A DNA stretch of 39,215 nt from a virus, in IMG/VR virus record IMGVR_UViG_3300033145_001968, positions 1 through 39,215 of that record. One strand, 5' to 3'. The notes beneath the pieces were generated by a model, which had not been told where the DNA came from, did no database searches, and saw only the letters and a list, made by a program, of their open reading frames with translations. Positions within the stretch are counted from its first letter, which is position 1. Each line of letters starts with the position of its first letter. This document shows positions 1 to 39,215 of this stretch, piece after piece. The position numbers and the translations under genes are program-made.

Positions 1-1050
1 GTCGCCAAGTACTGCGACCTCTGCGGCTGTCCGGTTCCCCTGCCCGGCCGTCTGGACACGGACGAACTTGACGACATCACCGCCAGCAACCTATGCCTCA
101 TGGCCGACTCCCCGCGCATTCAGGCCGAGCAATACGTCCTCGTCGGCCCCGGCGACTTCGACCTCGAGGCCCTGGACAACGCCGACTGGCGGCCCAACGA
201 ATACCTCGGCCGCCCCAAGGCCCGCGCGCCCAAGCGTCTCGCCAGCCCGCCGCGCCAGACGCGCGAAGCCTGGCCCCTGCCCCGATGCCGGAAGCCGACC
301 ATCCGGGCCCTGACCGTCTGCGTCGACTTCGACGACCTGCTGGCCATCACCCTGCCGCGGGCCATGCCGCACTTCGCCGAATTGATCGTCGTCACCGCGC
401 CCGAGGACGAAGCCACGGCCGAGATCGCCCGCCTCTGCGGGGCCGGCCTCTACCGAACAAATGCCTTCTACCGCGACGGCGCCGTTTTCAACAAGGGCCT
501 GGCCATCGAGGAAGCCCTGGATTGGATGGGCCGCCGCGGGTGGCTTTGCATCCTGGACGCCGACGTCGTTCTGCCGGCCGACCTCCAAGTCCTCCTGCCG
601 CCCATGCAGCCCTGGAACCTCTACGGTTGCCACCGCCGCATGTGCCTCGAGCCCGCCGACTACACCGGCCAGACCGACTGGTCCCGCTGGCCGCGCAAGC
701 GCGACTACGAACTGGCCGGTTACTTTCAGATCTTCAGCGCCGACGACCAGGCCATCAGCGGCCACCGGCCCTGGTACGGCGTCGACTGGCGACACGCCGG
801 CGGCTGCGATTCGGATTTCCAGAGCCTGTGGCCGCCGGCGCACCGCGTCCGCCTGGACTTCGACGTCCTGCACCTGGGCCGCGACGGCGCCAACTGGAAT
901 GGCCGGGCCACGCCGCGCATCGATGGCATCGACAACTCGGCCGAGGCCGAGCGCAACGCCGCCACCCAACGCCAGATGATGACCGCCCGCCGCCGCAATC
1001 TGAGCCTGCGGGGGGAGCGAATTGAAAAAACAGGACGGAATCCGTCCTGA
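1..1050 (+). CDS. Glycosyltransferase (GT-A) domain of the radical SAM-glycosyltransferase fusion (3' part)
   Basis: This is the continuation of the gene that starts at 38511; frame 1 is open from base 1 to the stop at 1048-1050. The first residues finish the cysteine-rich end of the radical SAM half (YCDLCGC). A linker follows, then a domain with GT-A features: a beta strand (LTVCVDF), a segment with NKGLAIEEAL, and a DAD motif at bases 556-564 (residues 383-385 of the fusion) that would bind the metal and nucleotide-sugar. Near the end, HLGRDGANWNGR resembles the tail of phage GT2-like enzymes. An ATG at 100 could start a stand-alone transferase, but it has no ribosome site and lies within the uninterrupted frame. 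Donor and acceptor cannot be told from sequence. A short hairpin (1033-1049) overlaps the stop region. Confidence 0.82.
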   Translation, partial: VAKYCDLCGCPVPLPGRLDTDELDDITASNLCLMADSPRIQAEQYVLVGPGDFDLEALDNADWRPNEYLGRPKARAPKRLASPPRQTREAWPLPRCRKPTIRALTVCVDFDDLLAITLPRAMPHFAELIVVTAPEDEATAEIARLCGAGLYRTNAFYRDGAVFNKGLAIEEALDWMGRRGWLCILDADVVLPADLQVLLPPMQPWNLYGCHRRMCLEPADYTGQTDWSRWPRKRDYELAGYFQIFSADDQAISGHRPWYGVDWRHAGGCDSDFQSLWPPAHRVRLDFDVLHLGRDGANWNGRATPRIDGIDNSAEAERNAATQRQMMTARRRNLSLRGERIEKTGRNPS

Positions 1051-1231: not shown

Positions 1232-1274
1232 AAACCGCCCTCTCCTGTACAGGGGGAGAGGGCGGTTTTTCTTT
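1232..1274 (+). terminator. Strong rho-independent terminator
   Basis: A perfect 14-bp stem (1232-1245 with 1255-1268) closes a 9-base loop and runs into a T tract (ttttt-c-ttt). It would end transcripts of the terminase and glycosylation region, separating them from the LamG and head genes. The flanking bases make it partly bidirectional. Confidence 0.88.
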
Positions 1275-1311: not shown

Positions 1312-2043
1312 ATGCGACCGTTTGACCCCTTCATCATCGACGCCAACACGCGCCACCTCTACCACTTCCACAATCGCACGATGAGCGACCGGGGAAGCGC
1401 CGGCGACGACCTGAGCGGCGTTGGCGGCCCGACCCTTGACGATGACGGACTGCATTGTGCGAACGGCAGCAAGTACGCCACCACGGGAGCGGTGGTTGAC
1501 TGGAGCGGCATGGCCAACATAACCATGCAAGCCTGGGCACGATTCACCGGGGCCCAGGACCATGCCGTTTGGGAGTACCCCTTCTCCTGGTTCCTGGACG
1601 GCAACAACTACTTCAGGGCCGGACTTCTGCCGACCTCGGGAACCTACCCCTTACTGTACGTCGCCGCAAAATTCGCGGGGTCTTTGGTCTATAGCGCCAA
1701 AGAACTCTCGGCCGATCAGTGGGCCGTCATAACCGCCGCCGGCGGCTGCCACTGGGGGGCCACGGCCTACCTCAACGGCGCCGCCAGCGCCGTGAAACTG
1801 TACCTCAACAACACCCTCTCCCTGACCAAGGGCGGAACGCTGGGAGCCATTGCCGGCGGCAACGGGAAACTCAACGCCGGCTCCTACGCATCCAATGCCG
1901 CGTACGCCTGGACGGGATGGGTCGACAACCTGAAAGTCAGCGACGAGCTGCTGACCTCGTTCCCGCTGGTCCGCTTCACCGAGGGCCGCCGCGGCGTCGC
2001 CCGCGGCCCAGGCCTCGACGCAATCGCGGGGGTGGCGGCATGA
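1312..2043 (+). CDS. LamG/concanavalin-like virion protein
   Basis: About 243 aa. The ATG at 1312 has GGAG seven bases upstream; an in-frame ATG at 1273 lies on the terminator and is rejected. The protein has the general look of a LamG/concanavalin jelly-roll: an N-terminal FDPFIIDANTRHLYHFHN strand pattern, a central WARFTG strand, and a late segment (GWVDNLKVSDELLTS) typical of the last LamG strands (usually DDVRIY-like). Such domains in phages bind carbohydrate or decorate tail fibres and capsids. It sits between the sugar-modification island and the gpW/portal genes and overlaps the next gene by 4 bp. A role as decoration or receptor-binding protein, possibly a target of the island's enzymes, is inference. 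Confidence 0.65.
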   Translation: MRPFDPFIIDANTRHLYHFHNRTMSDRGSAGDDLSGVGGPTLDDDGLHCANGSKYATTGAVVDWSGMANITMQAWARFTGAQDHAVWEYPFSWFLDGNNYFRAGLLPTSGTYPLLYVAAKFAGSLVYSAKELSADQWAVITAAGGCHWGATAYLNGAASAVKLYLNNTLSLTKGGTLGAIAGGNGKLNAGSYASNAAYAWTGWVDNLKVSDELLTSFPLVRFTEGRRGVARGPGLDAIAGVAA

Positions 2044-2945
2044 TCCGACTCGATCTCGAAAACGACGACTACGACCTGACCTCCGAGGCCACGGTCCTGA
2101 CCCACACCCTGCCGGCCAGTCCGACCGAACACCTGGTGGGCGCCTGGATCGACTGCTCCAACCTCCACGCCGGAATCGGCACGCTCACCGTCCGCGCGAC
2201 TGCTGACGATATGGAGGTTTTCCACTCTGTCATCGACAAGCGGGACCTGACTGGTCGCATACTGTCGATCCCGCCGCTCATGTTTCGGGCCCCGATGGAG
2301 ATCAAGCTGCTGCTGACCAGTTCCAACGCCAACGACACTGTGGTTGACGTGACGGCCGTCCTTTCCAGCCACGACCTGGACTACGCGCTTTCGTTTCAGG
2401 CCGCCGAGGCCTCGCCCACCGCCGGGTCGCTGGCCAAGCTCATCAAGGACGCGGCCACCGCCGCCGCCCTGTCGGCCGTCTCGACCCTGGTCGGCCAGCG
2501 GGCCACCCCGGCCCAGGTCCTCACCCAGTCGGCCGCCGCCCTGGCGGCCCTGCACCTGGACCACCTGATCGGCGTAGCCTGCGACAGCGACGACATCGCC
2601 CAGCACGTCGTCGACAACAGCATCCTGGCCCTCATCCTGGCCCAGGGCGGCGACATCAGCGACTACAACGACACCACCGATTCCCTGGAGGCCCTCCGCG
2701 CTCGCCTGGGCGGCGGCGGCCCCATCCCCTTCACCTACACCCTGACCGAGGACGACCTGGTGACCCCCATCGCCGAGGCCCTGGTCCAGGTCTACACCGA
2801 CTCGGCCATGACCAGCCTGGTCACCCAGGCCCACACCAACACCGCCGGCCAGGCCGCCTTCAACCTTGCCGCCGGGACCTACTACCTGAGGTGCACCAAG
2901 AGCGGTTACTCGTTCGACAACCCCGACACGGAGGTCGTCAGCTAA
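2040..2945 (+). CDS. Virion-associated protein with C-terminal carboxypeptidase-regulatory-like beta-sandwich
   Basis: 301 aa. It starts with ATGA overlapping the LamG gene stop and ends overlapping the gpW-like gene, so the three are probably co-translated. Residues 1-120 form a beta-rich domain. An alanine-rich helical stretch follows, then a glycine linker (LGGGGPIPF). The last 70 residues (TLTEDDLVTPIAEALVQVYTD... TYYLRCTKSGYSF) resemble the CarboxypepD_reg/Ig-like beta-sandwich found on phage fibres and decorations. No catalytic motif is visible. Adhesion or decoration is the likely role, inferred from domain type and neighbours. Confidence 0.55.
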   Translation: MIRLDLENDDYDLTSEATVLTHTLPASPTEHLVGAWIDCSNLHAGIGTLTVRATADDMEVFHSVIDKRDLTGRILSIPPLMFRAPMEIKLLLTSSNANDTVVDVTAVLSSHDLDYALSFQAAEASPTAGSLAKLIKDAATAAALSAVSTLVGQRATPAQVLTQSAAALAALHLDHLIGVACDSDDIAQHVVDNSILALILAQGGDISDYNDTTDSLEALRARLGGGGPIPFTYTLTEDDLVTPIAEALVQVYTDSAMTSLVTQAHTNTAGQAAFNLAAGTYYLRCTKSGYSFDNPDTEVVS

Positions 2946-3193
2946 TGGCCACAGGATCCGGAACCGGAACACCCGTCGCTGCGACCACCGCCGCCACCAT
3001 GGTTGCCGCCATCGAGACCGCCCTGGCCGCCAACCCCATCGGGACGGTCCGCGTAACCATCGACGGCCAGACCGTCGAGTGGGACCGCAAACAGGCCCTT
3101 AACGAATTGAAATTCTGGGAAGCCCGCGTCGCCCGCGAGGCCTTCACCCGGCCGCGAGCCGCCGGCCTTAACCTTTCCACACAGCCAGGATGA
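2945..3193 (+). CDS. gpW-like head-tail joining protein
   Basis: 82 aa. The ATG overlaps the previous stop (TAATG) and the gene ends overlapping the portal start, exactly the place of lambda gene W before portal B. The pattern VRVTIDGQTVEWDRKQALNELKFWEARVAR followed by a basic, proline/glycine tail matches the gpW layout: helix, beta hairpin with DGR-like turn, helix, basic tail. gpW-type proteins plug the connector after DNA packaging and allow tail attachment. Similarity is judged by eye and by gene order. Confidence 0.68.
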   Translation: MATGSGTGTPVAATTAATMVAAIETALAANPIGTVRVTIDGQTVEWDRKQALNELKFWEARVAREAFTRPRAAGLNLSTQPG

Positions 3194-4662
3194 CCATGAC
3201 GCAACTGAGCCCCGAAAACTTCGCCGACCTTCGACCCGCCCGCCGGCGAGCCCTCGGCTACGATGCCGCGACCTCCAGCCGCCGCCGCCGGGCGCCGGTG
3301 GGGATCCTCAAGACCGAGGACGACCACCTGACCGTGACCGGCCGCAAGAAACTCATCGGAACGGCCCGCGACCTCCGCCGCAACTACGCCATCGCCAAGT
3401 GGATGGTCACCAAACACCTGGACTTTGTCTCGACCTTCACCTTCCAGGCCCGCACCAAAGACGAAGGCCTGAACACCGAGATCGAAAACCTGATGCGACA
3501 CTGGGGCCGCCGGGCCAACTGCGACGTGGCCGGCCGCCACAACCTCGGGCGGCTGACCCGCCTGTGGGAAGCCTCCCGCACCCTGGACGGCGACGTCTTC
3601 GTCCTGCGCCTCTCCGACGGCCGCCTGCAGTCTATCGAGGGCGACCGCGTCCGCACCCCGGCCGCCAAGGCCAAGCTGCCCGACGGCGTCAAGGCCAAGG
3701 ACATGACCCACGGCGTCAAGACCTCCCCCGCCGGTAAGGCCCTCGGCTACGCCGTCCACAAGCGCGTGCCCAAGTCAAGCCGCTTCGAGTTTCACCGCTA
3801 CCTGCGAGCCAAACACGTCGAGCCCCTGGGCTACTATGACCGCATCGACCAGGTCCGCGGGATCTCGCCCATGGCCCCAGCCATCAACGCCCTGCAGGAT
3901 ACCCACGAAGCGTTCACCTACGCCCTGGCCCGGGCCAAGGTCGCCCAGATGTTCGGCCTCGCCTTCTACCGCGACGCACCGGAAGGAGGCCTGGGCGACA
4001 TTACCCACACCGAGGACGGCGACGGCAACGAGGACAAATCCAGTTACACGGTCGACTTCGCCAAGGGGCCGGTCATCCTGGACCTGGAGCCCGGCGACCG
4101 GGCCGAATTCATTGAGAGTAACGCCCCATCCCAGGAATTCCAGGGCTTCACCCTGGCCCAGATCGCCATGGCCCTGAAGTGCCTCGACCTCCCCTACAGC
4201 TTCTACGACGAGAAACACACCAACTATTACGGCAGCCGCGGGGCCCTGATTCAGTACATCCAGAGCGCCGGCATCAAGCGCAAGGACCTCCAGGAACTGC
4301 TCGACCGCCTGACCCAGTGGCGGCTGGGCCTGTGGATTCTCGATGGCGACCTGGTTCTGCCGCGCGGCATGACCATCGCGGACGTGGTCTGGGAATTCGT
4401 GCCCACCGGCCTGCCCTGGTGGAACCCCCTGCAGGAGGTCAAGGCCGACGCCCTGGCCATCGACAAGGGCCTGACCTCGACGTCCCGGGCCACCAAACAG
4501 CGCGGCGAGGACGCCTACGAGATCGCCCGCGAGGAAGCCAAGTTCAGGATTTATGCGGCGACCCTCGAGGCGGAGGTCCGCACCGCTCGCCAGGGCCTGG
4601 GCCTGCCCGAAGAAGCCGCCCCCGCCAAGCCAACACCCGCCGCACCGGAGGACAAACAATGA
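3190..4662 (+). CDS. Portal protein, lambda family
   Basis: 490 aa. It forms the dodecameric portal ring at the capsid vertex, through which DNA is packaged and to which the connector binds. Features of the lambda-type portal (Phage_portal_2) are visible: an N-terminal RRNYAIAKWMV segment, LSDGRLQSIEGDRVRTP, the HVEPLGYYDRIDQVRGISPMAP core, and SFYDEKHTNYYGSRGAL near residue 345. The C-terminus is acidic, proline- and alanine-rich. ATG 3190 overlaps the previous stop; ATG 3196 has a better-spaced AGGA and may be the true start. It overlaps the protease gene (ATGA). Confidence 0.93.
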   Translation: MTMTQLSPENFADLRPARRRALGYDAATSSRRRRAPVGILKTEDDHLTVTGRKKLIGTARDLRRNYAIAKWMVTKHLDFVSTFTFQARTKDEGLNTEIENLMRHWGRRANCDVAGRHNLGRLTRLWEASRTLDGDVFVLRLSDGRLQSIEGDRVRTPAAKAKLPDGVKAKDMTHGVKTSPAGKALGYAVHKRVPKSSRFEFHRYLRAKHVEPLGYYDRIDQVRGISPMAPAINALQDTHEAFTYALARAKVAQMFGLAFYRDAPEGGLGDITHTEDGDGNEDKSSYTVDFAKGPVILDLEPGDRAEFIESNAPSQEFQGFTLAQIAMALKCLDLPYSFYDEKHTNYYGSRGALIQYIQSAGIKRKDLQELLDRLTQWRLGLWILDGDLVLPRGMTIADVVWEFVPTGLPWWNPLQEVKADALAIDKGLTSTSRATKQRGEDAYEIAREEAKFRIYAATLEAEVRTARQGLGLPEEAAPAKPTPAAPEDKQ

Positions 4663-8458: not shown

Positions 8459-8474
8459 CAGAAACCAGCGCACC

Positions 8475-8511
8475 GCGCCCGGCGGCCCATGCCCATGTCG
8501 CCGCCGGGCGC
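8475..8511 (+). terminator. GC-rich hairpin after the tail tube gene (attenuator candidate)
   Basis: A perfect 11-bp inverted repeat (8475-8485 with 8501-8511) closes a 15-base loop between the tail tube and tail chaperone genes. It lacks a T tract, so it is more likely an attenuator or mRNA-stabilising end for the highly expressed tube transcript than a full terminator. Confidence 0.5.
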
Positions 8512-8532
8512 CAAATTCCGGGGACCTGCACA

Positions 8533-9015: not shown

Positions 9016-9035
9016 CCTGGCGGCAACTGGACAAC

Positions 9036-9834: not shown

Positions 9835-9845
9835 GCGAGGACGCC

Positions 9846-10319
9846 ATGCCGGCCGTACAGATGGGAATCAAATTCACCATGTTTTTTGACCGCCGCGCGG
9901 TCATCGACGCGGTCGCCAGGGCCAACCGCCGTAGCCTGTCCAAGGCCGGCGGTTGGCTCCGCCTGGCGGCTCGCCGCAGCATCCGCAGCCGCAAGAGCAT
10001 CAGCAAGCCCGGGAGCCCCCCCTCCAGCCACACCAGGGTCCTCAAGGACGGCATCCTCTACGGATACGACGCGGTCCGCGAGGACGTCGTCGTCGGGGCC
10101 GTCATCCGCCGCGGGGCCGACCGCGACCGCCTGCGCGGACCCCGGGCCCCGGAACTCCTGGAGAAGGGCGGAACCGTGACCCGCCTGATCCGCCGCGGCG
10201 GCCGCAAGCGACGCCTCCGCATGACCTACCGGGCCCGGCCCTACATGGCCCCGACCCTGGCCAAGGCCCGCCAGTCGGACGCCCTGGCCCCGATCTGGAA
10301 AAACAGCGTTCGAGGATGA
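9846..10319 (+). CDS. HK97 gp10-like tail completion protein candidate
   Basis: 157 aa, highly basic. The N-terminus is a strand (VQMGIKFTMFFD), followed by a helix (RRAVIDAVARANRRSLSKAGGWLRLAARRSIRSRK), a central region, and a C-terminal RARPYMAPTLAKARQSDALAPIW. The family typically ends RPFLRPAL..A.... These head-tail connector proteins help join tail to head. Here the gene lies after the chaperones rather than before the tail terminator, which is unusual but seen in related phages. Confidence 0.6.
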   Translation: MPAVQMGIKFTMFFDRRAVIDAVARANRRSLSKAGGWLRLAARRSIRSRKSISKPGSPPSSHTRVLKDGILYGYDAVREDVVVGAVIRRGADRDRLRGPRAPELLEKGGTVTRLIRRGGRKRRLRMTYRARPYMAPTLAKARQSDALAPIWKNSVRG

Positions 10320-21546: not shown

Positions 21547-21624
21547 CGCGCAACAATCCCCGGTTTCCGAGCGAACCGGGTTTGACGGAGGCCGACAGCC
21601 ACCCGACAGATGCTGAGAAAGGAG
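21547..21624 (+). promoter_or_regulatory. Duplicated leader, copy 1 (before the ParB-like gene)
   Basis: About 78 bp that align with 28733-28808 at roughly 72 percent identity by hand alignment. The first 12 bases (CGCGCAACAATC) and the last block (GACAGATGCTGA...AAGGAG) are conserved. It includes a perfect 7-bp hairpin CCCGGTT/AACCGGG and the ribosome site of the next gene. Confidence 0.6.
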
Positions 21625-21633
21625 AAACGAACC

Positions 21634-24000: not shown

Positions 24001-24602
24001 AGGGCTCCCGCCCCCTGACAACCTCCGAGGTCCGCAAACTTCTGGCCGCCTTCGACCGGCCCGGACAACACCCCGCCTGGGCCAAGCGAAACCGATGCCT
24101 GTTCGTCCTGGGCATCACCTGCGGCTTTCGCATTTCGGCCATCCTCTCGCTGGCCCGCAGCGACGTCATGACCCCGGCCGGGAAGGTCGCCAAGACCGTC
24201 AGCATCGCCAGGCGCCACCAGAAGGGCCGCCGCGAGGGGATGACCAAGCCAATCAACGCTTCGCTGCGGACGGCCCTCGAGGCCTGGCTCTGGGCCCAAC
24301 AGAATCTCGGCTATGACCGCGGCGACACGCCGCTGTTCGTCTCGAGCCAGGGCCGCCAGGCCATCGGTCGCGGCCAAGCCTACCGCATCATCCTGGCCGC
24401 CGCCCGGGCCGCGGGCCTTGACGGGCGGATTGGCACCCACAGCATGCGCAAGACCTCCGGCATGCGCATCTACCTGGCCACCGGCAAGGACATCCGGGCC
24501 GCCCAACACCACCTGGGCCACGCCGACGTCGGCAGCACCGGCCAATATCTGGACCCCGACGAAGCCGCCGTCGACCAGGCGATCGAGAAAATGGAGATCT
24601 GA
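23997..24602 (+). CDS. Short tyrosine recombinase (catalytic domain only)
   Basis: 201 aa, ATGA overlap with the ParB-like gene. All core residues are present: R45 (CGFRISAIL), H148xxR151 (HSMRKTS), the GH box H175 and Y184. It lacks the N-terminal core-binding and arm-binding domains, so it is the size of fimbrial FimB/FimE recombinases. It is distinct from the integrase at 30744. Its coupling to a ParB-like gene suggests a role in resolving multimers or in a DNA-inversion event, but no target site was found. Confidence 0.88.
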   Translation: MKGSRPLTTSEVRKLLAAFDRPGQHPAWAKRNRCLFVLGITCGFRISAILSLARSDVMTPAGKVAKTVSIARRHQKGRREGMTKPINASLRTALEAWLWAQQNLGYDRGDTPLFVSSQGRQAIGRGQAYRIILAAARAAGLDGRIGTHSMRKTSGMRIYLATGKDIRAAQHHLGHADVGSTGQYLDPDEAAVDQAIEKMEI

Positions 24603-25507
24603 TGAGCGCAAGCGACGGCCGACCCAAAATTACCGCCCTCTCGTCCTGGTTTGGAGGCAAGCGGACCCTGGCCCCCACGATCGTCGAGGAACTCGGCCCC
24701 CACCGCGCATATTGGGAGCCGGCCTGCGGCAGCATGGCCGTCCTATTCGCCAAGCCGCCGTCCAACCATGAGACCGTCAACGACCTGCACGGCGACCTCG
24801 TGAACATGGCCCGCGTCATCGCCTCGGACGCCGCCTTCGCCCTATACGACCGCCTGATGCGGACCGTCATGTGCGAGCCGCTCGTCACCGACGCCCGCGC
24901 CCACGTCGCGGCCGACATCGACGCCCCCGCCAGCGGGACCGGCGGCGACGCCGACCGGGCCTACTGGTACTTCGTGCTTTCCTGGGCCGCCAGAAACGGC
25001 GTGGCAGGGGCGGCGCGTATGACTTTCCAAATGGCCGTCCGCTGGACCTCCGGCGGCGGCAGCGGCTCGGTCCGCTTCCGAAGCGCCGTGGACAGCCTGC
25101 CCTGGTGGCACCGCCGCCTCCGGAACGTGGAGATCTTGCGGCGCGACCTGTTCGACGTGGTGCCGCGCATCGCCGACCAGCAGGGAACGGTCATCTACAT
25201 GGACCCGCCGTACCTTCGCCGCGGCGGCCGGTCGGGCGCCCAGGCCTACCTCTACGAATTCGGGGCAGGCGACCACCGCACCCTTGCCGAACTGCTCGCC
25301 CGCTTCAAGGCCGCCCGCGTGGTCGTCAGCTACTACGACGACCCGCAACTCGCCGAACTCTACCCCGCGCCGCACTGGACCAAGCGGCTCGTCTACCGCC
25401 AGAAGAACCTCCACGTTCAGAGCCGCCGCGGAGTCGGCAAGTCCACCGCCCCCGAGGTCCTGCTGCTGAACGGGCCAAGCTACGCCAACAAGGAGCCGGA
25501 GAACTGA
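24602..25507 (+). CDS. DNA adenine methylase, D12 (Dam) class
   Basis: 301 aa, overlapping the recombinase stop by one base. The family motifs are clear: FGGK near residue 17 and EPACGS near 39 (SAM binding), then DPPY at residues 201-204 (catalysis on adenine N6). The end carries the family tail with E(V)LLLN. The enzyme probably methylates phage DNA, protecting against restriction or marking the origin. Target sequence cannot be told. Confidence 0.92.
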   Translation: MSASDGRPKITALSSWFGGKRTLAPTIVEELGPHRAYWEPACGSMAVLFAKPPSNHETVNDLHGDLVNMARVIASDAAFALYDRLMRTVMCEPLVTDARAHVAADIDAPASGTGGDADRAYWYFVLSWAARNGVAGAARMTFQMAVRWTSGGGSGSVRFRSAVDSLPWWHRRLRNVEILRRDLFDVVPRIADQQGTVIYMDPPYLRRGGRSGAQAYLYEFGAGDHRTLAELLARFKAARVVVSYYDDPQLAELYPAPHWTKRLVYRQKNLHVQSRRGVGKSTAPEVLLLNGPSYANKEPEN

Positions 25508-27194: not shown

Positions 27195-28067
27195 ATGCCG
27201 ACTGACATCGAATGGTGCGACGAGACCTGGAACCCCATCATCGGCTGCAGCAAAATCAGCGCCGGCTGCCGCGGTTGCTACGCCGAACGCATGGCCGCCC
27301 GCCAGGCCGCCATGGGCCGCGAGGACTACCAACACGTCGTCACCCCGGCCGGGAACTGGCTCGGCCAGACGCGGTTTGTGGAGTCGGCCTTGGACAAGCC
27401 CCGCCGCTGGACGCGCAAGCCGCGCCGCATTTTCCTGGGCTCCATGACCGACATCTTCCACCGTAGCGTCCAGCCGCAGTGGCTAGACCGGGTGCTGGAG
27501 GTCGTCGCCGCCGGCAAGATGCACACCCACCTGGCCCTGACCAAGCGGGCCTCGAGCATCGACCCGAAACTCTACGACGCCAGCGACCAGGCCCCGCGCC
27601 GCCTCCTGGCCGCCGGCGAGACCATGGCCAACCTGCACCTCGGCGTCACCATCGAAAACCAGGTCGCCGCCGACATCCGCCTGCCGCACCTGATGGAACT
27701 GGCCGCCTGCGGCTGGACGACCTACGTCTCCTGCGAGCCCCTGCTTACCCACCTCGACCTGGCCAACTTCCTCGGCCCGGCGCGCCTGGCCGGCGTCATT
27801 GTAGGCGGCGAAACCGGACCGCAGGCCCGACCCATGAACCCCGAGTGGGTACGCTCGATCCGCGACCAGTGCGCCGCCGCTGGCGTCCCGTTTTTCTTCA
27901 AATCCTGGGGAGCCTGGGTGCCGGACAGCTACCGCGACTGGCGCAAGCACGAACGCATCTGGCTCGAGCCCGACGGCCCGAGCATGTGGCGACACGGCCA
28001 GGAGGCGAAACAGTTAGACCGACACCGCCTCCTGGACGGCCGCCGACACAATGACCTGGCGGCCTGA
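27195..28067 (+). CDS. DUF5131 (Gp37/Gp68 family) phage protein
   Basis: 290 aa. The opening TDIEWCDETWNPIIGCSKISAGCRGCYAERMA with C18, C25 and C28, then IFLGSMTDIFH, GVTIENQ, YVSCEPLL and GGETGPQARPMNPEWVRSIRDQC are all hallmarks of DUF5131. The cysteine arrangement suggests a radical-SAM-like Fe-S enzyme, but the reaction is not known to me. The family is common in phages near DNA metabolism genes. Confidence 0.9.
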   Translation: MPTDIEWCDETWNPIIGCSKISAGCRGCYAERMAARQAAMGREDYQHVVTPAGNWLGQTRFVESALDKPRRWTRKPRRIFLGSMTDIFHRSVQPQWLDRVLEVVAAGKMHTHLALTKRASSIDPKLYDASDQAPRRLLAAGETMANLHLGVTIENQVAADIRLPHLMELAACGWTTYVSCEPLLTHLDLANFLGPARLAGVIVGGETGPQARPMNPEWVRSIRDQCAAAGVPFFFKSWGAWVPDSYRDWRKHERIWLEPDGPSMWRHGQEAKQLDRHRLLDGRRHNDLAA

Positions 28068-30489: not shown

Positions 30490-30747
30490 GTGACCGCCAA
30501 GCAACAGAACGCCTACCCCGGCCTGGCCGACTATGGCGACATCATGACGCTGGAGGAAGTGGCCCAGTACCTGCGGGTCTCCAAGCCGACCGTCAGCCGA
30601 ACGGCCCGGCTGGGCGGCCTGGTTATCCTGGAACTCAGCCCACAGTGCCGCGGCGTTCGCAAGGCCGACCTGGTCGAGTACCTGGACCACCAAGCCCAGC
30701 GGGCCCGCCAGAGGGCCGACCAGCGGCCCCGGGCACCAGCACACTAG
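30490..30747 (+). CDS. Excisionase-like helix-turn-helix protein
   Basis: 85 aa, GTG start with GGAG ten bases upstream. Residues 17-70 (DIMTLEEVAQYLRVSKPTVSRTARLGGLVILELSPQCRGVRKADLVEYLDHQ) are a MerR/excisionase-type helix-turn-helix. It converges with the integrase gene and overlaps its stop by 4 bp. The likely role is recombination directionality factor (Xis) for the attP-integrase pair. Confidence 0.78.
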   Translation: MTAKQQNAYPGLADYGDIMTLEEVAQYLRVSKPTVSRTARLGGLVILELSPQCRGVRKADLVEYLDHQAQRARQRADQRPRAPAH

Positions 30748-31931
30748 CCCTGCAGCCGACCGATGGCCTCCCGCAGAGCCGGCGAGAGGTCGCCTTTGTA
30801 GTGCTTCTGCGTTGTCATGTAAGAGGCATGGCCGAGAAACTCCTGGACCACCGCCGGCGACGTGCCGGCCGACAACAGGTGAGTGGCAAACGAGGAACGC
30901 AAGTCATGGCGACGAATCGTCGAGAGCCGCAATGCCCGACGCACCAACTCCACCAGGGCCGCCGCCGGCCGCCCGCCCAGGAGCCCCTCGAGGGCCGCCT
31001 CTACGGCGGCCGCGTCGTCGGCCCGGGCCAGGGCCAGCCAATCGATGGCCTGCCAGAGGTCGGCCCCGTCGACACCGTCAAAGGTCTCGGCCAAGGCCGT
31101 CCGGGCCGCCCGCCGAGCCACCCGCACCCAGGTCGAGACCAGGCCGTCGGCCGTCCAGCGAAAGAGCCGATCCGCCGAGCCCGCGCCGAGCCTGGCCTCA
31201 GAGAGCCGGTCGCGGAAGCCCTGGTCGGGATGCACCGGCACACGGTACTCCTTATCCGTTTTGGTCGAGCGGACCTCGACCGTCCAAGATTCGAAGTCGA
31301 ACTGCTCCCAGACCAAAGCCAGAGCCTCGCCGCGCCGCATGCCAGTGAACCACAGGACGTCCATGAACAACTGCAGATTCGGGCGGCCCTCGGCCCGCAG
31401 CAGACGGAATTCCTCCAGCGACACCACGCGCGGGGCCTTCTGCCCGCGGACCTTCAGCATCGGAACGTCCGACGCCACGTTCGCACCGACCAGGCCGAGC
31501 CGACGAGCCCGGCTGAGCCAAGAGCGGAGCATCCGCAGCTCCTTGTTCACCGTCGAGGCTGCCACCTGCGCGAAGCGGGCGGTCTTGAAAGCCGCGACCA
31601 TCGCCGCCGAGACCTCACCAAGCCACAAGGGCCGACAGACCCCGCGAAAGCGGGCCTCGCAGTCGACCTCGAGCCGCCGCGTCGAGACGGCCTTCTCAAG
31701 GAACTCGGCGTCGGCCAAGTAGGCCGCCCAATAATCACCCCACCGCAATCGCACCTGGTCAACATACAGCCCGCGGTTCAGCCGCCGCTCGAGGTCCCGG
31801 ACCCAGGCCTCGGCCTCGGCCTTCGAAAGACCATAGAGCGACTTCTGGTGCCGGCGACCGTCCTGCCCGTACCATCCAGCATACCGACAGCCGCGGTCCT
31901 TCCGCACAAAGAGCCAAGCCCGCTTCGGCAT
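30744..31931 (-). CDS. int: Phage integrase, tyrosine recombinase family
   Basis: 395 aa. ATG 31931 is chosen because GGAAGGG lies about eight bases upstream and the arm-type repeats begin outside it; a longer frame to 32039 runs into attP. The N-terminal arm-binding region (RKDRGCRYAGWYGQDGRRHQKSLYGLSKAEAEAWVRDLERRL) precedes a core-binding domain and the catalytic domain. The active-site residues are R199/R200 (TGMRRGEAL), H342xxR345 (RHDLRSS), H368 (LGH) and Y378 (QKHY). It recombines attP with a host tRNA gene. Confidence 0.95.
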   Translation of the reverse strand: MPKRAWLFVRKDRGCRYAGWYGQDGRRHQKSLYGLSKAEAEAWVRDLERRLNRGLYVDQVRLRWGDYWAAYLADAEFLEKAVSTRRLEVDCEARFRGVCRPLWLGEVSAAMVAAFKTARFAQVAASTVNKELRMLRSWLSRARRLGLVGANVASDVPMLKVRGQKAPRVVSLEEFRLLRAEGRPNLQLFMDVLWFTGMRRGEALALVWEQFDFESWTVEVRSTKTDKEYRVPVHPDQGFRDRLSEARLGAGSADRLFRWTADGLVSTWVRVARRAARTALAETFDGVDGADLWQAIDWLALARADDAAAVEAALEGLLGGRPAAALVELVRRALRLSTIRRHDLRSSFATHLLSAGTSPAVVQEFLGHASYMTTQKHYKGDLSPALREAIGRLQG

Positions 31932-31973
31932 AACACCGCCCTTCCACGCCAGAAACGCCCACGCGGCCGCAAG

Positions 31974-31995
31974 GAGTGGAACCCAAATGGAACCC
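31974..31995 (+). repeat. Arm-type repeat pair, left
   Basis: Contains TGGAACCCA at 31977-31985 and 31988-31996, 11 bp apart. The 22-bp block matches 32204-32225 at 21 of 22 positions. Confidence 0.75.
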
Positions 31996-32066
31996 AGACA
32001 CGACAGAAGGGGAGGGCTGGACAGGCCAGCCCTCACCATAAACGCCGCACTCGCAGCGGTTTATAT

Positions 32067-32117
32067 TGGCGAGGCCAACGGGACTCGAACCCGCAACCTT
32101 CGGATCGACAGTCCGAA
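32067..32117 (-). other. attP core: 3' half of tRNA-Asp(GTC)
   Basis: On the reverse strand the sequence is the 3' half of a tRNA: anticodon stem-loop TTCGGA-CTGTCGA-TCCGAA (anticodon GTC), T-arm GCGGGTTCGAGTCCCGT, acceptor TGGCCTC, discriminator G73 and CCA. G73 with GTC fits tRNA-Asp. The 5' half is missing, so it is not an expressed tRNA. It is the part that would rebuild the host gene after integration. Confidence 0.85.
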
Positions 32118-32203
32118 TCCGAATCCCACGTCATAGCCCAATCTGACCTGACGACATTAACAACCACGACAACCGCTGTCAACCATTGCCGCCGCAACCC
32201 ACC

Positions 32204-33062: not shown

Positions 33063-33628
33063 GCAACGACCACCTCGACAAGGTAATCCTGCTGCTCGTC
33101 AGCGGCCTGGGCCAGGCCGCCATCGAAGCCGTCTGCCGCGAGAAATTCCAACTCGACGCCAAGGCCACCGCCGCCCTCATGGCCCAGGCCAAGAAACAGA
33201 TCACCCTCGCCGCCGACTACGACCGCGACCAGGAGATCGGGACCAGCTACATCCGCCTCAAGGACCTTTACAGCCGGAGCCTTAAGGTCCAGGACTTCAA
33301 GACGGCCCTGGCCGCCCAGAAGGAAATCAACAGGCTGCAAAACCTCTACCCCACGCCCAGTGAAGGAGGCGCCGCAGCCGAGGACGGCGACCTGGGCCAG
33401 GCCCAGGCCACCATCGCCGAAGCCATGGCCCACCTGGAGCCTCTCTGCCTCGGCCAGCCCGGCGACAACCTGCCCGACCTGGCCCGGCTGGCCGCCTGCC
33501 GGATCCTGAACGGGACCATCGTCAAGCCGCCCCGGCGGCCCGCCACCAAGAAGAAGGCTAAGAAAAAGACCAAGAAGAAGGCTAAGAAAAAGACCAAGAA
33601 GAAGACCAGGAAGAAAGCCGCCAGATGA
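33059..33628 (+). CDS. Terminase small subunit candidate with lysine-repeat tail
   Basis: 189 aa, GTG start overlapping the preceding stop. It has a helical N-terminal half (HLDKVILLLVSGLGQAAIEAVCREKFQLDAKATAALMAQAKKQIT) resembling a DNA-recognition domain, then an oligomerisation-like helical region (GTSYIRLKDLYSRSLKVQDFKTALAAQKEINRLQNLY). The end is a KKKAKKKTKKK tail built on 24-bp repeats (33548-33619). Its place directly before the large terminase supports the call, and the histone-H1-like tail would bind DNA. Confidence 0.65.
   Translation: MSNDHLDKVILLLVSGLGQAAIEAVCREKFQLDAKATAALMAQAKKQITLAADYDRDQEIGTSYIRLKDLYSRSLKVQDFKTALAAQKEINRLQNLYPTPSEGGAAAEDGDLGQAQATIAEAMAHLEPLCLGQPGDNLPDLARLAACRILNGTIVKPPRRPATKKKAKKKTKKKAKKKTKKKTRKKAAR
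33548..33619 (+). repeat. Three 24-bp tandem repeats encoding a lysine-rich tail
   Basis: The first two units (33548-33571 and 33572-33595) are identical and encode KKKAKKKT; the third (33596-33619) has diverged and encodes KKKTRKKA. Such repeats can vary in number between relatives. Confidence 0.8.
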
Positions 33629-35694
33629 CCGCCACCGCAAAAGCCTACCATCGACACCGCGACGCCGCCCGGCAACGCCAGGCCAGCCTGAGCCTGGCCG
33701 GCCGCAACATCGACGCCATCCCGGCCGTGGCCGACCCTGCCCGGAAGATCGCCTGCGCGACCGACCTGCGGCTATTCTGCGAGACCTACTTTCCGCGGAC
33801 CTTCTACCTGCCCTGGAGCGACGACCACCTGGCCGTCCTGGCCAAGATCGAGGACGTCGCCCTCCACGGCGGCCAGTTTGCCCAGGCCATGCCCCGCGGC
33901 GGCGGCAAGACCACCATCGTCGAGACCGCCTGCCTGTGGGCCGCCCTCTACGGATGGCGGCGATTCCTATGCCTGATCGGAAGCGACGAGGACCACGCCA
34001 AGGGCATGCTGGAGAGCATCAAGAGCGAGCTGGAGAACAACGACCTCCTGCTGGCCGACTTCCCCGAGGTCTGCCACCCCATCCGCAGTCTGGAGCGGGC
34101 CAGCCAGCGAGCCACGACACAGCTTTACAACAACCGCCCGACCCTGCTGACCTGGTCGACCACGACCATCATCCTGCCGACCATACCGGGCTCCCGGGCC
34201 AGCGGGGCCCTGGTCCGAGTGGCCGGCCTGCTGGGAAGCTTCCGCGGCATGAAATACAAGCGCTCCGACGGCAGCACCGTCCGCCCCGACATGGTCGTCG
34301 TCGACGACCCGCAGACGGACGAATCCGCCCACAGCCGGAGCCAATGCGAGACCCGCGAGAGAATCCTGGCCGGAGCCGTCCTCGGCCTGGCCGGCCCGGA
34401 CAAGGCCATCGCCGGCTTCATGCCCTGCACGGTCATCGTCGAGGACGACCTGGCCGACCGCATCCTGAACCGCAAGCGGAACCCCGACTGGCAAGGCGAA
34501 CGGATGCAGATGCTCTATGCCTTCCCGACCAACCAGGAACTCTGGGACCAGTACGCCGACATCCGCCGCATCGCCCTGGACAACCACGGCAACATCGCCA
34601 AGGCTACCGCCTTCTACAAAAAGAACCGCAAGGCCATGGACGCCGGGGCCCGCGTCGCCTGGCCCGAGCGACACGAACCCGACGAGGCCAGCGGACTGCA
34701 GTGCGCCATGAACCTCCTGCTTAAGGACGAACGGGCCTTCTTCGCCGAATACCAGAACGACCCCCAGCCGGAAATCGTCACCGACGCCAAGGTCCTGACC
34801 TCCGAACAGATCACCGCCCAGATCAACGGCCTGGGCCGCGGCGTCGTACCCCTCGGCACCGAACACGTTACCGCCTTCATCGACATCCAGGGCCAGGTGC
34901 TATACTGGCTCGCCGCGGCCTGGGAGGACGACTTCACCGGCGCCGTCATCGACTACGGAACCTGGCCACCGCAGCGACAACAGTATTTCTCCATGCGCAA
35001 CGCCCGCATGACCCTGGCCCGAAAATATCCAGCCACGGCCGGCGACGTCCACGCCCGCGTCCAGGCCGGCCTGCGGGACCTGCTGGCCGACCTCCTGCTG
35101 CGGGACTGGCCCAGCGAGGATGGCTCCAACCGCCGCATCGGCCGCTGCCTGGTTGACGCCAACTGGGGCGAGACCTCCGACGACATCTACCTGGTCCTGA
35201 GCCGCAGCCCACACAAGGCCCTCCTGCTGCCGGCCCACGGCGATCCAGTCGGACCGCACAAGACGCCATATTCCGAGTACCGCCGCAAGAAAGGCGAACT
35301 CATCGGCTGCCATTGGCGGGTGCCGCGCCGCAAGGAAGGCCGGACCATCCGCCACGTCCTGACGGACGTCTACTGGTGGAAAAGCCTGGTCCACGGCCGC
35401 CTGGCCATGCCCATCGGGAGCCGCGGCGGCCTGGCCCTTTTCGGGAACCGGGCCTCGGCCCACCGCCTGCTGGCCGACCACCTGACCGCCGAATTCCCCG
35501 TCCGCACCGAGGGCCGCGGGCGGACCGTCGACGTCTGGAATATCAAACCTTCGCGGCCCGACAACCACTGGCTCGACTGTCTGGTCGGCGCCGCCGTCGC
35601 CGCCTCCATCGACGGCGCCAGCCCAGACGGCCGGCCGACCCGCCGGGCCGCCAAGAAGAAACCGAGGCGCAACCGTGTCGCCTACATGACCTGA
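33625..35694 (+). CDS. Terminase large subunit
   Basis: 689 aa. It is the motor and nuclease that packages DNA. Walker A is P90-RGGGKTT (K95), Walker B is MVVVDDPQ (D227, D228). The C-terminal RNase-H-like nuclease has candidate metal ligands D420 (FIDIQ), D511 (LVDANWGE) and D651 (HWLDCLVG). The N-terminal segment (LRLFCETYFPRTFYLPWSDDHLAVLAKIEDV) is the usual adenine-binding region of this group. It overlaps the small subunit gene (ATGA). Confidence 0.93.
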   Translation: MTATAKAYHRHRDAARQRQASLSLAGRNIDAIPAVADPARKIACATDLRLFCETYFPRTFYLPWSDDHLAVLAKIEDVALHGGQFAQAMPRGGGKTTIVETACLWAALYGWRRFLCLIGSDEDHAKGMLESIKSELENNDLLLADFPEVCHPIRSLERASQRATTQLYNNRPTLLTWSTTTIILPTIPGSRASGALVRVAGLLGSFRGMKYKRSDGSTVRPDMVVVDDPQTDESAHSRSQCETRERILAGAVLGLAGPDKAIAGFMPCTVIVEDDLADRILNRKRNPDWQGERMQMLYAFPTNQELWDQYADIRRIALDNHGNIAKATAFYKKNRKAMDAGARVAWPERHEPDEASGLQCAMNLLLKDERAFFAEYQNDPQPEIVTDAKVLTSEQITAQINGLGRGVVPLGTEHVTAFIDIQGQVLYWLAAAWEDDFTGAVIDYGTWPPQRQQYFSMRNARMTLARKYPATAGDVHARVQAGLRDLLADLLLRDWPSEDGSNRRIGRCLVDANWGETSDDIYLVLSRSPHKALLLPAHGDPVGPHKTPYSEYRRKKGELIGCHWRVPRRKEGRTIRHVLTDVYWWKSLVHGRLAMPIGSRGGLALFGNRASAHRLLADHLTAEFPVRTEGRGRTVDVWNIKPSRPDNHWLDCLVGAAVAASIDGASPDGRPTRRAAKKKPRRNRVAYMT

Positions 35695-35716: not shown

Positions 35717-36001
35717 ATGGCCAAGAAGAAAACGAGGAAAAAAAGAAGGTCGAAAACACAATCCGCCAGAACCAGGACCCCCGGTCGCCCGCGACCAACC
35801 GCCGGACCGACACCGGTCGTCGTCGTCGAACCGTCCCGCTGCAAGAAATGCGGCTCGACCGACCGCGAGCATTACAGCCACACCACGGTCCGGGACATCG
35901 CCGGCGTCCGGCCCGATGGGATGGCCTACAGTAAGATTTTCTGGCGACGGACCCGCTGCCAGAACTGCGGCCAGGCCCGCATCGATAAGACTTACGAATG
36001 A
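35717..36001 (+). CDS. Basic zinc-ribbon protein
   Basis: 94 aa, ribosome site GGAG. The first 30 residues are lysine- and arginine-rich. A four-cysteine ribbon follows (CKKCGSTDREHY ... RCQNCGQARI). It links the terminase operon to the sugar-modification genes and overlaps the next gene by 4 bp. It may bind DNA; function unknown. Confidence 0.68.
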   Translation: MAKKKTRKKRRSKTQSARTRTPGRPRPTAGPTPVVVVEPSRCKKCGSTDREHYSHTTVRDIAGVRPDGMAYSKIFWRRTRCQNCGQARIDKTYE

Positions 36002-36780
36002 CCGCGCCGACCCACAGCATCATCATCCCGCACCGCGACCGGAACCTCCACCTGGCCGCCTGCATCGACCGCCTGCACCAGGCCTTTGCCCATTGCCACG
36101 TCGGCCATGAGGCCTGGGAAGTCGTCGTCGTTGACAGCGGCTCGAGCATACCGCCGGCCACCGGCGCCGCGGCCGTCCGCCTGGTGCGCGACGAGAAGTC
36201 GCCGCCCGTTTTCTGCAAGGGCCGCGCGCAGAACCTCGGCATCGAGGCCGCCCGCGGCGACGTCCTGACCTTCCTCGACGCCGACAGCCTGGTCGGCCTC
36301 GACTGGCCCCGCGGCGCGATCGCGCTGCTCGCCCGCCCCGACCTGACCCGCCTCTGCTACCGCGTCCGCTACCTGCCGGAGGGAGCCAACCTGGCCGACC
36401 TCGAGGCCCACTTTGCCGACTATGACAGCCACGCCCTCGCCTTCGAAGCCTACCGCAATCCGGGCCGCAACCGGGCGCCGGACAAGGAGGATGACGCCGT
36501 CTTTGGAAACAGCCAATTCTCGATCGCCCGCCAGAACCTCGGGGGCCTGCGATTCGACGAACGCTACATCGGCCGCGGCTTCGAGGACCTGGAATTCACC
36601 TGGCGAATCTGGTTCGCCTACGGGAAGCGCTACCGAGGCCAGATCATCACCGCCGGACACAGCGCCATGTTTCACCAGCTGCACCCCTACCGGGCCGCCG
36701 ACTGGTACGACCGGGACCTCAGACACGCCAACCGCAACCGCTACGTTAAGGAACTCCGCGATGCCCCAAGAACTACCTGA
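35998..36780 (+). CDS. GT2-family glycosyltransferase
   Basis: 260 aa, ATGA overlap upstream. N-terminal GT-A domain: HSIIIPHRDR, VVVVDSGSS, KGRAQNLGIEAARGDVLTFLDAD with the DAD metal motif. The C-terminal RFDERYIGRGFEDLEFTWRIWFAYGKR is the acceptor-side GxGxED motif seen in galactosyl/N-acetylgalactosaminyl-transferase-like enzymes. It transfers a sugar from a nucleotide donor; the acceptor is unknown. A cytoplasmic soluble enzyme (no signal or membrane segment). Confidence 0.88.
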   Translation: MTAPTHSIIIPHRDRNLHLAACIDRLHQAFAHCHVGHEAWEVVVVDSGSSIPPATGAAAVRLVRDEKSPPVFCKGRAQNLGIEAARGDVLTFLDADSLVGLDWPRGAIALLARPDLTRLCYRVRYLPEGANLADLEAHFADYDSHALAFEAYRNPGRNRAPDKEDDAVFGNSQFSIARQNLGGLRFDERYIGRGFEDLEFTWRIWFAYGKRYRGQIITAGHSAMFHQLHPYRAADWYDRDLRHANRNRYVKELRDAPRTT

Positions 36781-37213
36781 CCTCACGCCGGAGCGGCTCG
36801 CCGCCATCAGCCGCATCCGCGACCGCACACCCGAGGCCCTCCTGGGGCCATGGACCGCGCCGGTCTACCATCCGCCAGCCGAGCCCCGCCCGGGCCGGGC
36901 CTTCTTCGCCGTCGAATGCTTCCGCCGCCACATGACCGACGAGGCCTGGCAACTGCAGATGGGCCTGCAGGCCGCCGGCTACACCCTCTATGGCCGCGGC
37001 TTCCCCCTGGAGCCGGTCCGCGGCCGGCCGGGTGACGAGACCGACGTCGCCGCCGTCTGCCACCGCGAGAACCCCGGCGCGGCAATCGTCCAGGACACCC
37101 GCGAGTGGGACCCCCTCAAGGGCTCGGCCTATGACAAACGGGCCGGCTTCACCAACATCGACCATGGAGGCCCTGGCCAGGCGGCCCGACATCTTCCGCC
37201 TGACCGTCTTTAA
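36761..37213 (+). pseudogene. Glycosyltransferase, N-terminal part (frame-split gene)
   Basis: 150 aa. It begins inside the end of the GT2 gene and reads as a Rossmann-like N-terminal domain (GRAFFAVECFRRHMTDEAWQLQMGLQAAGYTLYGRGFPLEPVRG... AIVQDTREWDPLKGSAYDKRAGFTNID). After about 37162 the frame turns to unrelated residues and stops at 37213. The conserved-looking continuation is in the next frame (37164 onward). A +1 ribosomal shift, a mutation or a sequencing error could explain it. If joined, the protein would be about 379 aa. Confidence 0.6.
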
Positions 37214-37901
37214 GGACGCCTGGCTGGACCGCCCCTACAGCCGCCAGGGCCACCGGCGAATCGACCCCCACGCCTACATAACCTATTACGATGCCCGCCT
37301 GCTGGCCTGGATGTGCCCCTGGCTCCGCGAGGACCAGCTGCTGCGGACCTACCACAGCCTGGACCCGGCCGACGTGCCGCCCTTCCGCGCCGATCGTCCC
37401 GGCTGGGCCATCATCACCGGGGCCACCAGCCCGGCCGTCTACCCCCTGCGCCAAAGAATCGTTAAGGCCATCAGGACGGCCCGCAACAAGACCCGCCTGG
37501 CCATCCTGACACACCCCGGCTATGGGGCCTTCGGCGTCCAGACGGCTACCTACATGGCCATGCTCAGCCGCTACCGGGTGGCCGTTTGCACAAGCTCGGT
37601 TTTCGGCCTGCCGCTGCGGAAGATCATCGAGGCCACGGCCTGCGGCTGCGCCGTGGTGACCGACCTGCCGAGGGCCGAGAAGATGCCCGGCATCGACCAG
37701 AACATGACCCGCGTGCGCTTCGACGCCACCGTCAAAGAGGTCCTGGCCGCCGTCGACCAGGCCGCAACCGCATGGGACGCCGACCGCCAGGCGAGCCGGG
37801 CCCGGGCGGCCGTCCTGCACTACAACTGGCGCGGCCTCTATGCCCGCCTGGCCACGGCCATCGAGGCCAAAAGGAGAAGCCATGCAAGCCCGACCAAGTG
37901 A
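37164..37901 (+). CDS. Glycosyltransferase, C-terminal part (frame-split gene)
   Basis: 245 aa from ATG 37164, which has no ribosome site. It begins MEALARRPDIFRLTVFKDAW, which would follow NID of the upstream frame if one base were skipped. Later, AVCTSSVFGLPLRKIIEATACGCAVVTDLPRAEKMPGI is the nucleotide-sugar-binding half of GT-B/CgeB-like transferases (E-A..CGC.VVTD). The end overlaps the methyltransferase start by 20 bp. It may be expressed alone or as a fusion with the upstream part. Confidence 0.65.
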   Translation: MEALARRPDIFRLTVFKDAWLDRPYSRQGHRRIDPHAYITYYDARLLAWMCPWLREDQLLRTYHSLDPADVPPFRADRPGWAIITGATSPAVYPLRQRIVKAIRTARNKTRLAILTHPGYGAFGVQTATYMAMLSRYRVAVCTSSVFGLPLRKIIEATACGCAVVTDLPRAEKMPGIDQNMTRVRFDATVKEVLAAVDQAATAWDADRQASRARAAVLHYNWRGLYARLATAIEAKRRSHASPTK

Positions 37902-38514
37902 CCTGATCCGCCGCCGCGAGGAATTCGGCCTGCTGGCCAACATCGCCCGTCTGCGCCAGGAACAAGCCGGCCTCGATCCCACGGCATCCCGAACGGCCAT
38001 CGAGATCGGCGTCGACAAGGCCGCCTTCAGCGTCGCCTTCCTGCAGCACTGGACCGGCCAACGGCTCTATTGCGTCGACCCCTGGGAAACCGACATGGCC
38101 GGTTACGATGACCCGCTCAACGCTGGCGGCCGCGACCGCGAGCCCGACATGCAACTGGCCGTCAAGGCCCTGGCCCCACACAATGACCGCGCCCAGATTC
38201 TCCGGATGACCAGCCGGGAGGCGGCCCCCCAAGTCACCGAGCCCATCGAGTTTGTCTATATCGACGGTAATCACCATCGGGAGTACGTCCTGAACGACTG
38301 CCAAACCTGGTGGCCCAAGATCGGCCATGGCGGCATCCTGGCCGGCCATGACTTCAACGGCGACTGGGAAGCCGAGACCCATGCCGCCCTTGAGGCCTTC
38401 CTACAGAAAGCCGACCTGCCGCCGGTCGTCGACTACGTCCTCGGCGACGCCGCGTCGTGGTACATCTTCAAACCCATCCCACCGGAACCCGACAAGGAGG
38501 AACCCGAGAAATGA
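37882..38514 (+). CDS. SAM-dependent methyltransferase (Methyltransf_24 type)
   Basis: 210 aa, ribosome site AAAAGGAG. The Rossmann motifs are clear: AIEIGVDKAAFSVAFLQHW (motif I-like), LYCVDPWETD (motif II), FVYIDGNHHREYVLNDCQTWWPKIGHGGILAGHDF (IDG-H and GHDF, typical of this family). Such enzymes methylate sugars or small molecules. Overlap on both sides with sugar-modification genes supports a role in the same pathway. Confidence 0.85.
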   Translation: MQARPSDLIRRREEFGLLANIARLRQEQAGLDPTASRTAIEIGVDKAAFSVAFLQHWTGQRLYCVDPWETDMAGYDDPLNAGGRDREPDMQLAVKALAPHNDRAQILRMTSREAAPQVTEPIEFVYIDGNHHREYVLNDCQTWWPKIGHGGILAGHDFNGDWEAETHAALEAFLQKADLPPVVDYVLGDAASWYIFKPIPPEPDKEEPEK

Positions 38515-39215
38515 GACCGCCGAGCGAAATGGCCATAATTCAGATCGACGTCACCAACCACTGCCAGCGACGCTGCGCCAACTGCACCCACCTGGTGCCA
38601 CACGGCCGGCCCTGGTTCATGGACCGCGAAACCTTCCGCCAGGCCGTCGACAGCCTCGAGGACTTCCCCGGCGTGGTCGGCATCATCGGCGGCGAGCCGA
38701 CCCTGCACCCCAAGATCGACCAGATGATAGACTACCTCCACCACCGCCGCGGCCGGGCTCGCAGCGGCCTGTGGACCAGCGGCGGCTCGAAATTCGCCCG
38801 GCTCCAGGCCCAGGTCAAAGAACAGGTCGGATACCTGAACCTCAATCCCCACCAAGGCGAGGTCCGCCACCAGCCGGTCCTGGCCGCCATCTGCGACCTG
38901 GTCCCGGACCCGGCCCAGCGCCGCCGCCTGATTGACAACTGCTGGGTCAACCTTAAGTGGTCGGCCTCGATCACCCCGCGCGGGGCTTACCTTTGCGAGG
39001 TCGCCGCCAGCCGCGACATGCTGGGCCCGCCGAGCGAGGCCGTCGGCCTGCCCGTCGAACCCGACTGGTGGCGACGCCCCCTCGAGGACTTCGCCGACCA
39101 GGTCGCCAAGTACTGCGACCTCTGCGGCTGTCCGGTTCCCCTGCCCGGCCGTCTGGACACGGACGAACTTGACGACATCACCGCCAGCAACCTATGCCTC
39201 ATGGCCGACTCCCCG
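38511..39215 (+). CDS. Radical SAM domain of a radical SAM-glycosyltransferase fusion (5' part; continues at base 1)
   Basis: The ATG overlaps the stop of the preceding methyltransferase (ATGA), so the pair is probably translationally coupled. The frame is open to the window edge and continues at base 1, giving a predicted protein of about 546 aa. Residues 18-25 hold the radical SAM cluster motif CxxxCxxC (C18, C22, C25). A GGEPT motif follows near residue 60, as in the SAM-binding strand of this superfamily. Cysteines 162, 202, 205 and 207 look like ligands for a SPASM-type auxiliary Fe-S cluster. The family makes a 5'-deoxyadenosyl radical from S-adenosylmethionine to modify sugars, peptides or nucleosides. 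The substrate here is unknown. Its neighbours are glycosyltransferases and a methyltransferase, so a sugar or glycoprotein substrate is inferred. Confidence 0.88.
   Translation, partial: MRPPSEMAIIQIDVTNHCQRRCANCTHLVPHGRPWFMDRETFRQAVDSLEDFPGVVGIIGGEPTLHPKIDQMIDYLHHRRGRARSGLWTSGGSKFARLQAQVKEQVGYLNLNPHQGEVRHQPVLAAICDLVPDPAQRRRLIDNCWVNLKWSASITPRGAYLCEVAASRDMLGPPSEAVGLPVEPDWWRRPLEDFADQVAKYCDLCGCPVPLPGRLDTDELDDITASNLCLMADSP
39102..39215. repeat. Terminal direct repeat, second copy (first copy at 1-114)
   Basis: These 114 bases are identical to bases 1-114. The radical-SAM reading frame that runs off the right edge continues in the same frame at base 1. This is the usual sign of a circular assembly, or of a circularly permuted headful-packaged genome, with a unit length of about 39,101 bp. 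A true short terminal repeat cannot be excluded from sequence alone, but the repeat lies inside a gene, which favours an assembly overlap. Confidence 0.93.

Follow-up and report, generated by a model that had tools for sequence, protein, structure and literature searches.

An uncultured phage carries, between its terminase and portal genes, an operon that encodes glycosyltransferases, a SAM methyltransferase and a fusion of a radical SAM domain to a glycosyltransferase, and related modules recur in the late operons of other phages. This island is very probably a glycan module of some kind. The best explanation as a whole, which we hold with slightly better than even confidence, is that the late-operon module assembles and chemically alters an oligosaccharide, most likely on a virion surface protein. 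Below, 'the window' is the whole stretch of 39,215 nucleotides that was analysed.

A gene island between terminase and portal

An exact comparison of the ends of the record revealed a direct repeat (Table 1), so the record is circular and the island is continuous across the contig ends, extending from 35998 to 39101 and then on to 1050 across the junction. All of the genes that an earlier note had placed here, between the terminase and zinc-ribbon genes and the head genes, were found at their positions. That note had also taken the gene overlaps as the mark of one operon, a reading borne out by ATGA junctions at 35998 and 38511, 20-base overlaps at 36761 and 37882, and the terminator-like hairpin that closes the island.

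Table 1 Features of the island, its borders and its flanking genes (window coordinates).
Feature	Position	Strand	Evidence
Terminase large subunit, GpA type; 5' border of slot	33625..35694	+	PF20454 2.2e-13; phrog_38 1.4e-31
Small AT-hook-like and zinc-ribbon protein	35717..36001	+	4 invariant Cys in 13 aligned relatives
GT2 glycosyltransferase	35998..36780	+	PF00535 1.3e-12
GT-B-like glycosyltransferase, N-terminal part (frame broken)	36761..37213	+	aligns to N-terminal half of intact L257 protein
GT-B-like glycosyltransferase, C-terminal part	37164..37901	+	PF13524 4.8e-6
Methyltransf_24 SAM methyltransferase	37882..38514	+	PF13578 9.8e-17
Radical SAM Twitch domain, N-terminal part of 546-aa protein	38511..39215	+	PF04055 1.9e-6, just below the Pfam cut-off; model pLDDT 94.6
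Terminal direct repeat, 114 bp	39102..39215 (= 1-114)		exact repeat; circular assembly
Rest of 546-aa protein: Twitch end, linker, GT-A (~301-900)	1..1050	+	model pLDDT 88.2, GT-A fold
Intrinsic terminator-like hairpin closing the island	1232..1268	+	15-pair stem, then T-rich tail
LamG-like protein (label by eye only), possible surface protein	1312..2043	+	ORF call
CarboxypepD_reg-like domain protein; possible decoration or adhesin	2040..2945	+	PF13620 9.9e-5, from the window protein set, tied to this ORF by its sequence
gpW-like head-tail joining protein	2945..3193	+	small homologous ORFs 5' of portal in relatives
Portal; 3' border of slot	3190..4662	+	PF05136 1.2e-41

The GT-B-like transferase had been described as split. 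It is a single intact gene in two related loci, L257 (375 aa) and L337 (342 aa), whereas in the window copy a 1-base frame change near 37162-37173 interrupts the frame, with homology to L257 running on through it; this alignment shows one gene, and the alternative of two separate GT-B genes was rejected. The frame change may be either a mutation or a sequencing error, two causes that cannot be told apart, and if the break is real the window GT-B may be inactive. The first frame ends in CTT TAA (37208-37213), which resembles a release factor 2 +1 shift site, probably by chance; a programmed +1 shift there, judged by eye, was rejected because the second-frame homology to L257 already starts near 37173.

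Directly after the terminator the earlier note had pointed to a LamG-like gene as a candidate target. The open reading frame is there, but the LamG label found no match in Pfam or by PDB sequence search, and this protein as the target of the glycan is only a guess. Among 50 phage records, Laminin_G_3 exceeded its cut-off in 12 and lay within 5 kb of the radical SAM gene in 7 of these, too few to claim an enrichment of LamG near the modules.

Elsewhere in the window are two integrase-family genes (30744-32039, minus strand; 23877-24602, plus strand). A complete tRNA-Asp(gtc) gene (32067-32140, minus strand) directly adjoins the same-strand integrase and is a likely attachment region. The window also encodes a 796-aa protein with ParB N-terminal and HTH domains (21610-24000), a D12-type adenine DNA methyltransferase (24602-25507) and a DUF5131 protein (27195-28067, assigned by sequence).

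The radical SAM-GT-A fusion protein

The fusion protein has 546 aa and is read from 38511 through the contig ends to 1050. For the model of its radical SAM part, the best fold match was SpeY (Z 14.1-14.6, with 216 of 234 residues aligned); BtrN matched with Z 12.3 over ~180 residues, and the peptide-modifying Twitch/SPASM enzymes scored lower (SuiB 10.8 and PqqE 10.0; SuiB, PqqE and anSME all at 9-11). Identity to SpeY and BtrN is 17-20%, and the profile matches are all weak, those to BtrN (0.001) and SpeY (0.0012) being tied with that to YydG. In an alignment of 64 sequences, Cys 18, 22 and 25 of the CX3CX2C motif are invariant, as are the four Cys (144, 162, 202 and 205) of the auxiliary-cluster site, which is not the seven-Cys SPASM motif. 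BtrN oxidises 2-deoxy-scyllo-inosamine (DOIA) and has an auxiliary cluster ligated by four Cys (PMC9012708). The common Twitch fold does not fix the reaction of the radical SAM domain, and fold or function of such enzymes is hard to predict from similarity networks (PMC6231123). We put the chance that the radical SAM protein is a sugar oxidase at about even. We know of no biochemistry for any member.

The model of the GT-A domain matches many GT-A transferases, the best being chondroitin polymerase (Z 16.8). The DxD motif, here D86-A87-D88 (DAD), and a C-terminal H191, to which we would assign a metal role, are invariant in 12 aligned rows.

The window radical SAM domain groups with those of L257, L325, L269 and L331, whose GT-A genes are separate, and the other radical SAM-GT-A fusions (L309, L313, L316, L323 and L307) form a separate clade, which implies that the fusion either had more than one origin or has been lost. 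L307 holds a glycosyltransferase (Glyco_transf_7C/Glyco_tranf_2_2), radical SAM, GT-A and MT24 in one 997-aa chain, the methyltransferase part of which also matches the rhamnosyl O-methyltransferase/CmcI family. In L269, a second radical SAM/SPASM protein (8314-9438) adjoins the module.

Recurrence of the module and variability of the slot

Scans of viral contigs with single sequences (radical SAM-GT and GT2) and with a strict DNA pattern found nothing, and profile scans were needed to find relatives. In 392 sampled Planctomycetota genomes, the radical SAM protein had three chromosomal matches: one is a fragment, and the other two (L254; L255, next to Wzm/Wzt-like ABC genes) lie amid glycan-synthesis genes. 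With an alignment of these chromosomal homologues, 76 viral loci were found, and a profile of the C-terminal GT-A domain gave 71 loci, 36 of them with radical SAM. Judged only by its terminase relatives, the window phage had at first seemed to be the sole carrier of the island, a reading rejected once the GT-A profile had found further loci.

Several of these loci place the module as in the window. In L405, the order is TerL, GT2, a P-loop gene (by eye sulfotransferase-like), GT2b, radical SAM, GTc and portal, and L347 has the same order from TerL to portal with a methyltransferase in addition; the L405 terminase is 49% identical to that of the window and the L347 fragment 27%. L337, the left end of which is cut within GT2, runs GT2, GT-B, methyltransferase (by eye), inserted genes, radical SAM, GT-A and portal, which is the window's order. 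In L336 and the near-identical pair L339/L361, GT-A lies immediately 5' of portal. The GT2 counterparts in L337, L347 and L405 are 42-44% identical to the window GT2, and module proteins retain ~37-49% identity in several phages. Chance is ruled out, as this gene set is present in other phages too. In L257, the module lies between a tail gene and the tape measure, which is 58% identical to that of the window, and the methyltransferase is 3' of radical SAM; related modules thus occupy different late-operon sites. TerL (phrog_2) lay within 10 kb of the module in 13 of 20 cases, a weak measure because the records are short.

The search for homologous clusters that the earlier note had proposed thus found modules between terminase and portal (L405 and L347) or directly 5' of portal (L336, L337 and L339/L361). 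Homologues scattered among unrelated loci with no link to terminase would have spoken against the idea; instead the terminase-portal position repeats, but some modules lie elsewhere in late operons.

The partners of the radical SAM gene also recur. MT24 is present in 23 of 50 phage records and, in 19 of these 23, lies within 3 kb of radical SAM, with ~6 expected under uniform placement. NDP-sugar epimerase and MT24 each account for 12 of 119 neighbours; the control genes 6-8 places away (n=109) were mostly structural singles, with neither family among the 25 families listed in the control tally, beyond which a single match to either is possible. A P-loop gene beside the L331 module (9411-10004) matches Sulfotransfer_4 (4e-27), and P-loop genes beside modules at L405 3003-3542, L347 2598-3176 and L339 479-997 are L331-like by eye (FVTGTGRCGS). 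Some module glycans may be sulfated.

Where terminase relatives of the window phage lie in genome contigs, almost all of these contigs belong to Planctomycetota, chiefly Phycisphaerae, and by this sequence kinship the phage is a virus of Planctomycetota bacteria. Radical SAM, GT-A, GT2 and GT-B were found in none of the 222 nearest terminase-containing loci within the fetched DNA. An AT-hook-like/zinc-ribbon gene lies directly 3' of terminase in 15 of the 222 (for example L009, L010, L018-L021, L024, L038, L053, L056 and L058), and the slot from zinc-ribbon to portal contains metallophosphoesterase-like genes, membrane proteins or nothing in the relatives; in L014, L020 and L024, a metallophosphoesterase-like gene (by eye) sits there on the opposite strand. 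With the island in none of these relatives and the slot holding unrelated cargo or empty, the interval serves as an accessory site for cargo within the structural operon, and virion assembly in this group does not need the module. The island had been assigned to a core structural operon as opposed to an accessory locus; its absence from all 222 relatives, the varying cargo of the slot and the modules found elsewhere do not support that argument.

Proposed function and relation to known systems

Our observations cover the genes and their operon, the position and recurrence of the module, the predicted folds, and the conservation of ligands and catalytic motifs, whereas we infer the activity of the enzymes, the identity of the sugars, the order of the steps and the target. 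Two or three transferases (GT2, GT-B and the GT-A half of the fusion) would transfer sugars, and the Methyltransf_24 enzyme would O-methylate one. The Twitch domain, fused to the last transferase, would take a hydrogen from a sugar carbinol and pass the second electron to the auxiliary 4Fe-4S cluster, giving a keto (or further changed) sugar, much as SpeY and BtrN act on aminocyclitols. The glycan would then be placed on a virion surface protein during particle assembly. The sugar donors would have to be supplied by the host, because no gene for nucleotide-sugar synthesis was noted in the window. The virion is favoured as the target because the module sits in the late operon in several phages, and we regard this assignment as evenly balanced.

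Alternatively, the module could change the polysaccharide of the bacterium, resulting in receptor masking, superinfection exclusion or conversion. Phage glycosyltransferases alter the host surface in serotype conversion, the chromosomal radical SAM homologues of L254 and L255 have polysaccharide or glycan genes around them, the phage looks temperate from its integrases, and L331 has a K1-lyase-type tailspike just 5' of the module, which points to dealings with the host capsule. However, the module is in the structural operon of several phages, and such an operon is normally expressed late in lysis, not in lysogeny; nor was a flippase or membrane anchor noted in the window island. We consider host-surface remodelling unlikely, if the most serious of the alternatives.

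Improbable is a RiPP-like maturation in which the radical SAM enzyme modifies a peptide or protein and the transferases decorate the same peptide. Twitch/SPASM enzymes often modify peptides, YydG/EpeE is among the weak profile matches, and SuiB, PqqE and anSME match the model, but SpeY and BtrN rank above these peptide enzymes, the genes that repeatedly accompany radical SAM encode glycosyltransferases, NDP-sugar epimerases and MT24, and no obvious precursor peptide was noted.

DNA is an established substrate of phage glycosyltransferases (Pyle et al. 2024, as cited in PMC12619734), and the module adjoins terminase; the earlier note had named DNA as a possible target. Sugars on modified bases are nonetheless a very improbable product, because the window has no base-hydroxymethylation gene: Pfam found no thymidylate synthase-like, hydroxymethylase or related family among the 34 other window proteins, the D12 adenine methyltransferase being the only DNA-modifying candidate. 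Just as improbable is a functionless, decaying gene cassette, which would fit the GT-B frame break and the variable slot, but every other frame is open, no catalytic motif has been lost and the module persists in several phages.

It is probable that certain phages place an unusual sugar chain on themselves or on their host. More tentatively, and with somewhat less than even confidence, we propose a hitherto undescribed virion-glycan pathway in uncultured phages in which a Twitch dehydrogenase-GT fusion would lead to oxidised, methylated and in some cases perhaps sulfated sugars on particle proteins, encoded by a cassette that moves between late-operon slots. Seen on dozens of contigs from uncultured phages, a module with radical redox chemistry would extend the repertoire of phage-made sugars, suggest new shielding or host-recognition devices and offer a source of carbohydrate-active radical enzymes. 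The interval between terminase and portal is also shown to take cargo in phages of Planctomycetota and their relatives.

The earlier suggestion that no phage equivalent had been described held in our searches. At 1e-5, tblastn matched the window GT2, GT-B C-terminal part and radical SAM-GT to none of the 50,697 phage records, and three relatives from different clades likewise had no match there; the window methyltransferase had only distant matches, nearly all in cyanophages. No paper on this enzyme combination was found among openly licensed articles. To our knowledge, virion glycosylation is known from few phages. The mycobacteriophages Che8 and Rita are reported to carry glycans on capsid and tail proteins (Freeman et al. 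2023, as cited in PMC11256854), and phage-encoded glycosyltransferases are common to these systems and the window; the mycobacteriophage enzymes are encoded near the 3' end of the genome (PMC11256854), whereas those of the window lie between terminase and portal with radical SAM. The tblastn search at 1e-5 with the window GT2, GT-B C-terminal part and radical SAM-GT gave no match to the mycobacteriophage transferases either, but glycosyltransferases diverge fast. T4-like DNA glycosylation also uses phage glycosyltransferases, but the window lacks a base-hydroxymethylation gene. Nucleotide-sugar and polysaccharide auxiliary sets of environmental phages similarly bring together glycosyltransferases, methyltransferases and NDP-sugar epimerases; here, in contrast, a Twitch radical SAM domain is fused to GT-A and the module recurs at the terminase-portal slot. 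SpeY and BtrN share the CX3CX2C motif and the four-Cys auxiliary site and are the best fold matches, but the phage radical SAM is fused to, or beside, glycosyltransferases. Judged from genes and models, the module would function in the manner of a glycan-synthesis system that includes a dehydrogenase-like radical step.
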